Positions 13,538 through 42,798 of a stretch of DNA of 64,000 bases are shown here, piece by piece. The DNA comes from Rhodothermales bacterium (GTDB lineage: Bacteria; Bacteroidota; Rhodothermia; Rhodothermales; UBA10348). The notes beneath the pieces were generated by a model. The model had not been told where the DNA came from and searched no databases. It saw nothing but the letters and a program-made list of their open reading frames with translations. Numbering within the stretch: position 1 is the first letter of the stretch; the number at the start of each line of letters is the position of its first letter. The stretch is from NCBI GenBank assembly GCA_040221055.1, contig JAVJVN010000016.1:62001-126000 (forward strand), in the 5' to 3' direction. Both the position numbers and the translations under genes were made by a program.

Positions 13538-13611
13538 GGTGACGTGGCCGAGTGGCTAGGCAAGGGTCTGCAAAACCCTGTACGGCGGTTCGAATCCGCC
13601 CGTCACCTCCA
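13538..13611 (+). tRNA. tRNA-Cys (anticodon GCA)
   Basis: Acceptor GGTGACG pairs with CGTCACC and the anticodon loop CTGCAAA gives GCA. The discriminator T at 13608 is the expected identity base for cysteine, and CCA is encoded at 13609-13611. Seventeen bases of its 3' end (13593-13609) are repeated exactly at 13769-13785. Confidence 0.95.
13593..13609 (+). repeat. 17-base direct repeat, copy 1 (inside tRNA-Cys 3' end)
   Basis: AATCCGCCCGTCACCTC within the T-arm and acceptor of tRNA-Cys. It is identical to 13769-13785, 176 bases downstream. Confidence 0.9.
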
Positions 13612-13645
13612 AAGAAAAGGCCCCCTCGTGGGGCCTTTTTCTTTG
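13611..13645 (+). terminator. Intrinsic terminator after the tRNA cluster
   Basis: A long stem AAAGAAAAGGCCCC / GGGGCCTTTTTCTTT closes over a five-base CTCGT loop. The pairing includes the A and T runs, and the 3' arm holds TTTTT. It directly follows tRNA-Cys. Confidence 0.85.
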
Positions 13646-13878
13646 GAGTGATGTGGCAGGGGTCGAACCGCCGAGGCGGTTCAAACGAGGGCCCCGTCAG
13701 GGGCCCGACTAACGAGCAAACCATGCTCGGCGGTAGTCGGATGGTTGGGGTGTTGATGTTTGCGAGTAAATCCGCCCGTCACCTCATGGATGAGCACCGC
13801 CGACACCGGACCGTATCAACTTTGCCCGGGATGGAATACTTTTCAGGCGGTCGTCGCTCATTCAACCCCGGAACCGTC
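13646..13878. other. Hairpin-rich non-coding stretch with tRNA-Cys 3'-end copy
   Basis: After the terminator come three more stem-loops. GAACCGCC-GA-GGCGGTTC is at 13665-13682 and GGGCCCC-GTCA-GGGGCCC at 13689-13706. A nested stem CCGACTA...TAGTCGG (13705-13711 with 13734-13740) encloses CGAGC/GCTCG. Then comes an exact copy of 17 bases of the tRNA-Cys 3' end (13769-13785). An open frame runs through but encodes nothing recognisable. The region may encode a structured RNA or be the scar of an integrated element. Confidence 0.6.
13769..13785 (+). repeat. 17-base direct repeat, copy 2 (att-like tRNA-Cys tail)
   Basis: Exact copy of tRNA-Cys bases 13593-13609, with no tRNA around it. A duplicated tRNA 3' end is what site-specific integration leaves behind. 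Confidence 0.9.
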
Positions 13879-39462: not shown

Positions 39463-42417
39463 CTACTGAGGAGGCAGTCGCTCGGGGAACTGGATGTTCA
39501 TCCAGAACCGGGTTATCGACGCCCCCAGGGCATCGGTCCCGATGATGACCAGGTCCGCGTCGCCGTCTCCGTTGTAGTCCCCGGCCGCGAACCGGCCGAA
39601 CAGCGAGGTCGAAAGGTCCAACTCCGGAATCAGAGTGCCGTTGTCATTGCGGTACAATCGGGCGATGGCGGCCGAAAACGGCTCGGGGGCACCCTGTACG
39701 ATCAAATCCAGGTCACCATCCCCTTCGTAGTCGACCCATTGGACGTCACCATGCACGGCACCGACGAAGACGCCGGATTCGACCGTGAACCGATTGCCGT
39801 CCATATTTCGCACCAACACAGCCTGGGATGAAAGGAGGTCAGGGGTTACTTGTCCGCCCGTGAGGAACAGATCGGGGCGGCCATCCCCGTCCATATCTCC
39901 CCAGGACAGACTGCTCGCGAGGAGCGGGGGCAGGTCCGCACCGATGTCCACAAACGTGCCATTGTCGTTCCGGAAGATCCCGGAAAACGGCCGTCCATTG
40001 CCGACGTCGCCGGAGAGCGCCACGTCCAGATCCCCGTCGCCATCCATGTCGGCAAGACGGGCCTCGCCCCCGACGATGCCGGGAAGCAGGTCGGTGTGTA
40101 CCGTGAATTCGGACCCGGTACCGTACGCGACAACGGTTACCGGCTCATAGGGCGGCACCGTACTGTGCGTACCGGTCAGGAGCACGTCCAGGACTCCATC
40201 TCCGTCAATGTCCCCCGTCTCCACGCTGCCGTTCCACAGGTTCGGCAGCGAAGACGGCGTCAGCTCTTCCACGGATGATTGCCGGTTCAGGTACACGAGG
40301 GTCCTGGGCTCGCTGGATTCCGGTTCGAGTCCTGAATAGACGATATCCGGGAACGCGTCCCCGTCCACGTCGCCAAAGGCCACTTCGGAGAAGGCCAGGG
40401 GCAGGATGACCATTTCCATGGGGCTGTACGTCTTGAACACGAACGTGGCTCCTTCCGCATTGGGTATGGGATACACGGCATCCTCCAGACGCAGGACCCG
40501 AGCGACATGTCGGTTGCCCGTGAATCCGCTGACGAACAGATCCAGGTCCGTGTCCTGATCAAGATCGAAAAAGGCCACCGATCCCCGTCGCACGTTCGGC
40601 AGACCATAGTTGAAGTCCAGTGGAGCCTCCAACGTCGGATTCGGGCCCTGGGGCTGTCCGAAACTGAAGACGGCGGACTGCGAGCTCCGAACCGAATGGC
40701 CGTCGGTGGCCACCACGGACCAACGATAGATCTGGTTCGGGATCAGGTTGACCGTGGCCAGCTCGATCCGGGGTTCGGAAATACCCTCGAAGGCAAGTTT
40801 CGTACTGCGTCCCTCCAGATACAGGTTCCAGGAAACGTCGTCGCCATCAGCATCGGCCGGGTTTTCCCAGGACAATTCAATGGTCTCCGTGATGGTCTCG
40901 AAAAACGCCCCGTTGGACGGTTGCACCAAACTGAACGGAGGAGGTGGCTGATTCGGGCCTACGCCCTTGACCAGCCGGACGCGCTGGTTCGAAGCAAAGG
41001 GTCCGGGAAACTCCTCGACATCCCCGTCCGGCCAAGTCACCCGTATGGCATTCACCTGGGCTTGCGTACCGAGCCCGAAATAGGCCGTCAACTCGTCCGA
41101 CTGGGACGACAATCCGGAACCGCTGGCAATCGTCCGATACCGGGAGCCTTCATCGGTCACGATTTCTATGCGCGCGCCGATTCCGAGGCGATTGCCACCG
41201 GCCGCGCGCACGTCCACCGACAGCCATTGGTTCGACCCGCCGGCGTTGTACCACAGTCGGTGACCGGTCGGGCTGGGGAAGGCCAGATCCACATATCCGT
41301 CGCCGTTGAAGTCGCCCGACACCACCAGTTCGGCGGAAATCTCCTCCGGAAACGCGGTTCCCGCCACATCCGTGAACGTACCGTCGCCGTTGTTCCGGTA
41401 CAGCCGGGACGGGAAGCCGCTGTTGGCGACGAATACGTCGACCCAGCCATCATTGTCGAAATCGGCCGGAATGGCCACATTCGATGCTTCATTCGGTTCG
41501 CCGCCCAGTCCCGACTCCTCGGAGCGGTACTCCAGCACGACCGTGGAAGATGTGGGCGAGACCCGGCGGACGCGGTAAAAATCGTTGGTGCCAATGGCGA
41601 AGCCGTTGCGTTCGTTCAGCACATACAGATCGTCCATTCCGTCATTGTCGGCATCGAACCAAGCCGATGAACGCGATGAGCGTCCGGTCTGGATGCCCAG
41701 CTGACTTTCCGAAAACCGGCTGGCGCCGCTCGACTTCAGCTTGAAGTTGTTGAAGGATCCGTCCTCGGCGCATCGGCTGACGAACACGTCAAGGTCACCA
41801 TCCTGATCGACGTCCCTCACGGAGGTGGAACAGACAGGCGGCGCGGTTCCCGCGAGCATAGGGCCTGCCAGGTTGGAAAAGGATCCGTCCGGCGTCGCCG
41901 TGAACACGTGGGCATCGCCCGTGCGGCGCATCACATACAGATCCAGGCGACCATCATTGTTGAAATCCCCCCAATGTGCGCTCCGGACCTGCGGTCCAAC
42001 GCCGAGGTTCAACGATGATCCTGCCACCGCAAAGGAAGAACCGGACTGGTTGATGTAGGTGCGGCTTGCCGGATCCGTGGCAATGATGAACAGGTCCAGC
42101 ATGCCGTCGGCGTTCACGTCTCCGAAAACACCGCCCTGGGGCAACTCTCCATCCACGAGGATGCCGGCCTCGTTGATGACATTGCGGAACGTCCCGTCGG
42201 GTTGCTGCTGGTAGAGGCGCCCGGGATGATACAGGTCCAGGAGTCCGTCCGCATTGTAGTCGCCAACAGCGGCGCCGACGAACGAAACACCCAGCTCCGG
42301 GCCAATCTGGAACCGGTCCGATACGTCGACGAAGCGTTGCGCGAAGCTCGCGGAGGGGACGACAATCAGGGCAAGGAGGAGTGCGCTGAGCACCGGGCGG
42401 AATCGAAAGAAGGCCAT
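39463..42417 (-). CDS. Secreted FG-GAP/ASPIC beta-propeller protein
   Basis: The start at 42417 gives 984 residues with a signal peptide (M-A-F-F-R-F-R-P-V-L-S..., cleavage after F-A-Q). At least eight FG-GAP calcium-loop units follow, for example D-Y-N-A-D-G-L-L-D-L, D-V-N-A-D-G-M-L-D-L, D-F-N-N-D-G-R-L-D-L and D-V-D-Q-D-G-D-L-D-V. An ASPIC/UnbV-type segment is at about 435-515 (L-G-I-G-A-R-I-E-I-V, then V-T-W-P-D-G-D-V-E-E). An Ig-like domain and a second block of repeats follow. It ends R-F-W-M-N-I-Q-F-P-E-R-L-P-P-Q with no T9SS sorting domain visible. The role is probably surface adhesion or binding. Confidence 0.88.
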   Translation of the reverse strand: MAFFRFRPVLSALLLALIVVPSASFAQRFVDVSDRFQIGPELGVSFVGAAVGDYNADGLLDLYHPGRLYQQQPDGTFRNVINEAGILVDGELPQGGVFGDVNADGMLDLFIIATDPASRTYINQSGSSFAVAGSSLNLGVGPQVRSAHWGDFNNDGRLDLYVMRRTGDAHVFTATPDGSFSNLAGPMLAGTAPPVCSTSVRDVDQDGDLDVFVSRCAEDGSFNNFKLKSSGASRFSESQLGIQTGRSSRSSAWFDADNDGMDDLYVLNERNGFAIGTNDFYRVRRVSPTSSTVVLEYRSEESGLGGEPNEASNVAIPADFDNDGWVDVFVANSGFPSRLYRNNGDGTFTDVAGTAFPEEISAELVVSGDFNGDGYVDLAFPSPTGHRLWYNAGGSNQWLSVDVRAAGGNRLGIGARIEIVTDEGSRYRTIASGSGLSSQSDELTAYFGLGTQAQVNAIRVTWPDGDVEEFPGPFASNQRVRLVKGVGPNQPPPPFSLVQPSNGAFFETITETIELSWENPADADGDDVSWNLYLEGRSTKLAFEGISEPRIELATVNLIPNQIYRWSVVATDGHSVRSSQSAVFSFGQPQGPNPTLEAPLDFNYGLPNVRRGSVAFFDLDQDTDLDLFVSGFTGNRHVARVLRLEDAVYPIPNAEGATFVFKTYSPMEMVILPLAFSEVAFGDVDGDAFPDIVYSGLEPESSEPRTLVYLNRQSSVEELTPSSLPNLWNGSVETGDIDGDGVLDVLLTGTHSTVPPYEPVTVVAYGTGSEFTVHTDLLPGIVGGEARLADMDGDGDLDVALSGDVGNGRPFSGIFRNDNGTFVDIGADLPPLLASSLSWGDMDGDGRPDLFLTGGQVTPDLLSSQAVLVRNMDGNRFTVESGVFVGAVHGDVQWVDYEGDGDLDLIVQGAPEPFSAAIARLYRNDNGTLIPELDLSTSLFGRFAAGDYNGDGDADLVIIGTDALGASITRFWMNIQFPERLPPQ

Positions 42418-42520
42418 ATATCGGGGGATGCGTGCTGAGGGTGCGCGGAAGCGGACACAGCAGGTCAAAGTACAGCCTTTTACGGACAGGGGACAGGTAA
42501 AAAAGTGACCCTTATTCTGT

Positions 42521-42537
42521 GCGGAGAGGGAGGGATT
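42521..42537 (-). repeat. 17-base direct repeat, copy 2 (tRNA-Ser tail)
   Basis: GCGGAGAGGGAGGGATT on the plus strand, identical to 42708-42724 at the tRNA-Ser 3' end. It is 187 bases away, with no tRNA body around it. Confidence 0.9.
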
Positions 42538-42621
42538 ACTCCTCGCTTCGCTCGGCGTTAGCCTGAGGGGGAGCCTGCACAAGAGAAAGCCCGGTCGGCT
42601 CACTTCGTTCGCCGCTTTGGT

Positions 42622-42673
42622 CTTTTTCGTTCGCTACTCATTCGAGCAAGCTCGATTCGTGCGAACGAAAAAG
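42622..42673. repeat. Perfect 13-base inverted repeat forming a cruciform
   Basis: CTTTTTCGTTCGC (42622-42634) and GCGAACGAAAAAG (42661-42673) are exact complements. They enclose a second hairpin TCGAGC-AA-GCTCGA at 42642-42655. One arm shares bases with the tRNA-Ser terminator. Confidence 0.85.
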
Positions 42674-42702
42674 CCCAGCACGCTTGCGCGTGCCGGGCTT
42701 TC
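42666..42702 (-). terminator. Intrinsic terminator after tRNA-Ser
   Basis: Stem GCACGC/GCGTGC extended by CCC/GGG and AAA/TTT with one A-C mismatch and a TTGC loop, followed on the minus strand by TTTTT. Confidence 0.8.
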
Positions 42703-42707
42703 CTTGC

Positions 42708-42724
42708 GCGGAGAGGGAGGGATT
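42708..42724 (-). repeat. 17-base direct repeat, copy 1 (tRNA-Ser 3' end)
   Basis: Overlaps the acceptor and T arm of tRNA-Ser. Its exact copy is at 42521-42537. Confidence 0.9.
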
Positions 42725-42798
42725 CGAACCCTCGATACAGGGTCTACCTGTATACTCGCTTTCCAGGCGAGCCCCTTCAGCCACTCGGGCACCTCTCC
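42709..42798 (-). tRNA. tRNA-Ser (anticodon GGA)
   Basis: Acceptor GGAGAGG pairs with CCTCTCC and the anticodon loop CTGGAAA gives GGA. A long variable arm (ATACAGGTAGACCCTGTAT) is typical for serine, and the discriminator is G. CCA is not encoded. It follows frr on the same strand and may be processed from that operon's transcript. Confidence 0.95.

Follow-up and report, generated by a model that had tools for sequence, protein, structure and literature searches.

Organization of the tRNA-Ser and tRNA-Cys loci

The window analyzed here is a 64,000-nucleotide stretch of contig JAVJVN010000016.1 from a Rhodothermales bacterium, in which an Rfam search brings only four tRNAs to the gathering score. 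Behind two of its tRNA genes, tRNA-Ser(GGA) and tRNA-Cys(GCA), lies a structured unit that ends in a second copy of the gene's own tail. The features of the tRNA-Ser locus are as follows:

42708..42798, minus strand: tRNA-Ser(GGA) gene, carrier of the unit (tRNA search of the window)
42708..42724, minus strand: original tail of tRNA-Ser, from T-loop A58 to base 74
42670..42701, minus strand: terminator-like hairpin right behind tRNA-Ser, arms 42670-42683 and 42688-42701 (inverted repeat; covarying helix)
42618..42677, minus strand: long hairpin of the Ser-type unit (inverted repeat, fold, covarying helix)
42585..42594, minus strand: stretch that can pair with the 5' arm of the terminator (42693-42702) and would close the whole Ser fold (10-base perfect inverted repeat)
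42538..42563, minus strand: right-end hairpin, GGCTAACG..GGAGT, adjoining the tail copy (sequence; aligned with relatives)
42521..42537, minus strand: exact copy of the tRNA-Ser tail (repeat comparison)

The order 3' of the gene is thus terminator-like hairpin, long hairpin, a further hairpin, right-end hairpin and tail copy. The initial annotation had described an exact 17-base copy of the tRNA-Ser 3' end 187 bases away, with a terminator and a 13-base perfect inverted repeat in between, and each of these is present. The copy matches at 17/17 bases (19/20 over a longer stretch) with a start-to-start spacing of 187, and the 13-base repeat is the perfect core of the arms of the long hairpin (42618-42634 and 42661-42677), which are 17 nt long and 94% complementary. 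The pairing of 42585..42594 with 42693-42702 belongs to the minimum-energy fold and is absent from the consensus fold of Ser units. The longest mechanical open reading frame at this place (39463-42603, minus strand, 1046 aa) starts inside the Ser unit; an ATG near 42418 is the likelier start, which puts the unit just upstream of that gene.

The tRNA-Cys locus contains a second type of unit:

13538..13611, plus strand: tRNA-Cys(GCA) gene, carrier of the second-type unit (tRNA search of the window)
13593..13609, plus strand: original tail of tRNA-Cys (repeat comparison)
13607..13648, plus strand: terminator-like hairpin behind tRNA-Cys (inverted repeat)
13665..13689, plus strand: hairpin GAACCGCC/GGCGGTTC, then AAACGAG, invariant in second-type units (sequence; invariant columns)
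13707..13768, plus strand: right end of the second type, GACTAACGAG to GCGAGTA (sequence; invariant columns)
13769..13785, plus strand: exact 17-base copy of the tRNA-Cys tail at a spacing of 176 (repeat comparison)

The 17-base copy at spacing 176 likewise agrees with the annotation, which had seen the same design at both loci. This holds for the order of parts, the copy length, the terminator and the hairpin end beside the tail copy, but the two units are of different types, and the 13-base inverted repeat is a feature of the Ser type. The RNA folding z-scores of the Ser and Cys stretches are -4.5 and -6.0, and no protein gene is seen in either unit.

Tail copies behind tRNA genes of the family

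To see how general the arrangement is, tRNA genes were surveyed in the genome of the window (G000), one congener and two other genera of the family (G003, G008, G015), with 151 of the 156 Rfam tRNA matches examined (all but four in G015 and one in G008). A copy of the gene's own tail at 16/17 or better lies within 500 bases downstream of 11/151 genes. The upstream control gives 0/151 at this threshold, with a best score of 12. Five of the copies are in the window's own genome, two in G003, four in G008 and none in G015. In the own genome, five of the 43 tRNA genes (Ser-GGA, Cys, Asn, Pro-CGG and Arg-ACG) are followed within 600 bases by an exact copy of 17-18 bases of their 3' end. After shuffling of the downstream sequence, the longest match over the 43 tRNAs is 8 to 12 bases. 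Chance matching was considered and is ruled out, with about 500 x 4^-17 = 3e-8 exact copies expected in 500 bases.

Pairing each gene with the tails of other tRNAs gave 20/1480 pairings at 14/17 or better and 10/1480 at 16/17 or better; near-identical tails are the likely reason for the high scores. Among 109 tRNAs (of 127 matches) in three genomes from other families of the order there is no unit. The one 17/17 downstream match in these genomes is the tail of a neighboring intact tRNA-Glu, and the same pair gives 17 upstream. Fisher tests on these counts yield 0.0008 and 0.003, values that are only rough since related genomes are not independent. The idea of a family of short tRNA-tail units is therefore borne out, by the own-tail survey as well as by the absence of units in the other families.

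When 11 unit-bearing loci were compared with Rfam (E<=1), no family except tRNA scored up to its gathering threshold, and RtT did not appear among the matches. The junction motif CGAGTAAATCNNNCCCG matches the own genome 27 times with at most two mismatches, against 12 for the reversed pattern. Three of the 27 are the Asn, Arg and Cys junctions, and one other that was inspected (L099) stands without a tRNA tail.

All 11 copies lie behind tRNAs whose tail starts with AATC, a start found in 86/151 tRNAs of the four surveyed genomes (P = 0.0015).

Anatomy of the units

The loci fetched contain 22 distinct units with tail matches of at least 15/17, behind 11 tRNA species for 8 amino acids. The common layout is tRNA bases 1-57, the tail (58-74), the unit with its terminator, hairpins and a right-end hairpin often ending in GAGTA, and the second tail (58-74), with 73-216 bases between tail and copy. 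The copies begin at T-loop base A58 directly behind the hairpin end, often as ..GAGTA|AATC, and run to base 74 or beyond. Exceptions to the A58 start are Pro, where the identity includes base 57, and the Glu-TTC copy of G008, which differs at its first base. The end before the copy is CGAGTA in 6/11 cases (Cys, Asn, Arg, Pro of G003 and of G008, and Glu-CTC), GGAGT in the Ser unit of G000, and GCAA or GGCAA in two Ser units of G008; the Pro unit of the own genome and the Glu-TTC unit of G008 deviate from the usual end. Variants in other genomes are GACGTA, GAAGTA and CGAATA.

The units fall into two types, one at tRNA-Ser and one at other tRNAs, with unlike left ends. Among 13 aligned units of the Ser type, 18/27 predicted pairs show compensatory change on both sides. 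Nine aligned units of the second type share the invariant sequences GTTCAAACGAG and CGAGTAAA. In the consensus fold of these nine units, which comprises 9 pairs, no pair has changed on both sides, so that covariation is not shown for this type.

A tRNA-like minihelix, formed by an inverted piece of the tail and the tail copy, was considered as a general feature. It is rejected as a rule, because pairing with the own tail stood out in 4/22 units. Two tRNA-Pro-CGG loci (L149 in G003 and L171 in G008) seem to have units without a terminator hairpin behind the tRNA. The G003 locus has a tandem pair of units, whose left halves differ and whose right halves are nearly the same.

Distribution over genomes

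A model of the Ser type matches 25/27 genomes of the same family (the match in G001 is an Asn unit) and, at 30 bits or less, 3/33 others; its presence in the family looks like vertical inheritance. The second-type model matches 10/41 genomes, all in the family. Of 51 fetched model matches, 44 lie on the same strand behind a tRNA called by ARAGORN. Among the other seven, L216 and L225 abut tRNA-Ser ends and the remaining five score 24-38 bits. G007 has four Ser-type matches, each beside a tRNA-Ser match.

The exact core pattern occurs in 2/394 genomes of the phylum, both from the genus of the window (G002 stands outside the 394). In genome contigs it gives nine stretches, of which three are real and tRNA-adjacent (L199, L200, L203) and six are without a tRNA; the three come from two Bacteroidetes/Bacteroidota MAGs and equal G001 and G002 at these loci. 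Viral contigs, searched with single patterns, gave two stretches for the first pattern, coding-like and without a tRNA, and none for the second. Phages queried with the Asn unit and plasmids queried with the Ser unit gave no match.

The covariation of the Ser type (18/27 pairs) and its wide presence in the family are what would be seen if the unit were a structured RNA kept for its function, as RtT of Escherichia coli may be, with the tail copy serving as a tRNA-like, processable 3' end. The annotated rttR RNA of strain K-12 ends at a tail copy, as such a role would have it. We nevertheless regard this explanation as improbable. Most units start with a terminator-like hairpin, so that, to judge from the sequence, the rest of the unit should be little transcribed, and the pairing between inverted tail piece and tail copy is not general.

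Comparison with the tyrT repeats and other known systems

The initial annotation did not recognize the units as a described class, but novelty of the kind is not supported. The 178-bp repeats of the E. coli tyrT locus, with the RtT RNA, share the order of parts and the T-loop start. Egan and Landy, and also Boesl and Kersten, reportedly did the original studies of the tyrT repeats, which to our knowledge have long been without an explained origin. The K-12 locus has six tRNA-Tyr tails, two of them inside tRNA genes, with an A58 start and a spacing of 178 in the RtT part. Its unit contains an inverted tail piece, a T-arm strand, hairpins and the junction GAGTA|AATCC. The likeness to the units described here thus includes similar length, position behind a tRNA, a tail copy starting at A58 at the end of each unit, the junction, an internal inverted tail piece and T-arm strand, tandem arrays with a partial end, and presence or absence of whole units. 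The difference is that the units here stand at many tRNA genes, mostly with a terminator at their start. By sequence organization they are a multi-tRNA variant, within one family, of the tyrT/RtT architecture, and the kind itself has already been described.

Between E. coli strains, tyrT varies by exactly one 178-bp unit. EcN_Sk carries an additional unit, and the DNA behind its last tail is identical at 893/905 positions; strain 361 has the spacer unit and USMARC-50748 lacks it; TUM13770 carries two tRNA-Tyr genes and lacks RtT. In 40 rows sampled across 5391 matching E. coli records, the match is annotated with the RtT sRNA in 34 and with only tRNA-Tyr in 6. The DNA behind the array holds a fatty acid desaturase gene in three strains (L264, L265, L269) and nar genes in three others (L266, L267, L268), which indicates that the array borders a variable junction.

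Common descent with tyrT is not proven. The Rfam RtT model (RF00391) exceeds its cut-off in 0/4 genomes of the family, with two chance-level matches in G002; among control genomes it does so in 1/14, with E. coli among the four that give a signal. The second-type model scores RtT units at 7.5 bits or less (E 0.08 or more). RtT annotations extend beyond enteric bacteria, judging by the available part of PMC8092127, where an RtT sRNA is reported to be upregulated in the cold in Thioalkalivibrio; the term RtT RNA also occurs in PMC2658671 and PMC7657543. By title and abstract, no paper found on tyrT/RtT, tail repeats or T-loop integration describes the multi-tRNA class, with subscription journals thinly covered.

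Other systems share single features. The cassettes of integrons are short arrayed units, each closed by an imperfect hairpin site, attC, whose box is GTTRRRY. The GTAAATC of the junctions here differs from this box, and the likeness is one of resemblance only. As in tRNA-integrated elements, a direct repeat of the tRNA 3' end restores the gene, but 73-216 bases leave no room for an integrase gene. The ssrA islands of Dehalococcoides, as far as the available text of PMC3146451 describes them, likewise insert at the T-loop, form a direct repeat of the gene's 3' end with a conserved motif immediately before it, and stand in series. They encode a serine recombinase and cargo, for which the units here seem too short. 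The partial tRNA 3' ends that integration leaves as attR fragments are also similar; the example in the portion available of PMC9897764 is a 21.4-kb island with 44-bp repeats, whereas here the unit itself is conserved and repeated.

These cases bear on the possibility that the tail copies are footprints of large integrated elements, each copy being an attR that remained when an island or prophage lost its interior. The T-loop start and the restored tRNA end are as in the tRNA and tmRNA integrations covered by the available parts of the same two papers. Anatomy and length, however, are conserved across tRNAs and genera, and there are tandem arrays. Random deletions would not leave such units, which refutes the footprint explanation in its simple form and makes it very improbable overall.

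Arrays and turnover

At Asn and Arg the units form arrays; in the window, Ser and Cys are each followed by a single unit. Over the first 48 bases behind the tail, Arg of G000 resembles the sequence behind the tail copy in G002 (36/49) more than that directly behind the tRNA (27/50), while G003 matches the latter at 47/48. At Asn, the G000 sequence agrees with positions two and three of the G002 array (38/49 and 39/49) better than with position one (24/48), and G003 agrees with position one at 39/48. That G000 and G003 match different positions of G002 shows that units with different terminators have been gained or lost, with tail copies as breakpoints. Since the cores are related, colinear alignments over greater lengths reach significance too. 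Flanks within the genus are too diverged for a comparison of empty sites, and unit-wise differences are seen in arrays only. Partial distal units occur in the Asn arrays of G000, G001 and G002 and in the Arg array of G002.

The Asn tail copies are 17/17 in five genomes with units only 46-76% identical, and two substitutions in the tail of the G002 tRNA-Arg recur in its copy. Related cores stand behind different tRNAs (Asn-Val 80-92%; Asn-Met 94% over 35 bases), each with the tail of its own tRNA. The Pro units of G000 and G003 have little in common except the tail. At 29 tRNA-Ser loci of relatives no exact copy of at least 14 bases was found, and many Ser-type tails have decayed to 10-13 of 17.

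Two oddities were seen in G002. A segment that is bounded by inverted repeats (AAGCGTTTTGAA..TTCAAAACGCTT) and resembles a small mobile element splits the second unit of its Asn array (L199). On contig C91 the same tRNA-Arg unit occurs with the same score at two places (L260, L261), a repeated region or an assembly effect, and is followed there by a reading frame resembling the start of an IS transposase.

Arrays could also arise without an enzyme, from an old unit at each tRNA, by slippage or unequal crossing-over between tail copies, aided by hairpins, with conversion keeping the tails alike. Slippage is a serious rival to insertion. It would produce the partial distal units, the exact one-unit differences between E. 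coli strains and the repeat identity at Arg of G002, which runs for 23 bases, beyond the tRNA end. It accounts for arrays, but not for the spread of related cores with host-specific tails over tRNA genes, the confinement to AATC or the fixed A58 start, and 17 bases are short for homologous recombination. The same division applies to simple tandem duplication, which the annotation had named as an explanation of the copies that would refute its reading: extra units within an array can be so explained, related units at different tRNA genes with their own tails cannot. As an account of the whole class, slippage appears somewhat unlikely.

A possible insertion mechanism

The units are a class that starts its tail copies at A58, is confined in the four surveyed genomes to AATC tRNAs, forms arrays, and is present or absent as whole units at tail copies. 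The mechanism we favor, and to which we give just short of an even chance, is that an enzyme acting in trans inserts units site-specifically at the T-loop. A piece of DNA would be inserted at T-loop base 58, restoring the tRNA 3' end and leaving the second copy downstream. Units may enter and leave by this event, with the right-end hairpin as the putative recognized end and a recombinase or integrase supplied in trans. New units would land beside the tRNA and older, distal ones decay, and the terminator in the unit may keep the tRNA transcript properly ended. Insertion is favored because the A58 start and the right end are conserved across tRNAs and genera, all 11 survey copies lie behind AATC tRNAs, and related cores behind different tRNAs carry host-specific tails. 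The unit-wise turnover, with the one-unit differences between E. coli strains, and the constancy of the Asn tail copies despite the divergence of their units also argue for it.

Against insertion stand the mostly decayed tails of Ser-type units in relatives, the vertical-looking distribution of this type, the scant likeness of the G000 and G003 Pro units outside the tail, and the left end, which is not conserved between types. An integration that carried a tail along would also replace the tail of the target tRNA, so that a plain integrase would need a target-copying step for units to spread. Integrase and Y1 searches and those of viral contigs, phages and plasmids found no enzyme, circle or autonomous partner. 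The search of the own genome, made with the broad Phage_integrase family, predicts five such genes, all more than 4 kb from any listed tRNA.

The richness in hairpins and the conserved hairpin end also recall REP-like or IS200/IS605 elements, which are moved by a Y1 transposase. A protein of this kind (PF01797) is absent from G000-G003 and G015, with one in G008, and we know of no such element that makes a 17-base copy of its target. This origin is hardly credible.

Site-specific insertion can be extended to a broader proposal, which we put forward tentatively as possible but short of probable. The units would be tRNA-tail cassettes that contain no gene, of a kind found also in distant bacteria, and they would move site-specifically between tRNA genes with copying of the last 17-19 bases of the target, or with exchange of tails via the folded hairpin end. 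The tyrT/RtT locus would then be one frozen example, and the polarized arrays would record successive T-loop insertions.

Implications

For annotation, tail copies of this kind could be mistaken for attR scars of lost islands. A tyrT-like architecture behind 11 tRNA species for 8 amino acids in a distant family provides natural replicates of the E. coli locus, and its origin becomes testable: what sets the A58 start, why the T-loops are AATC, and which enzyme, if any, moves the units.
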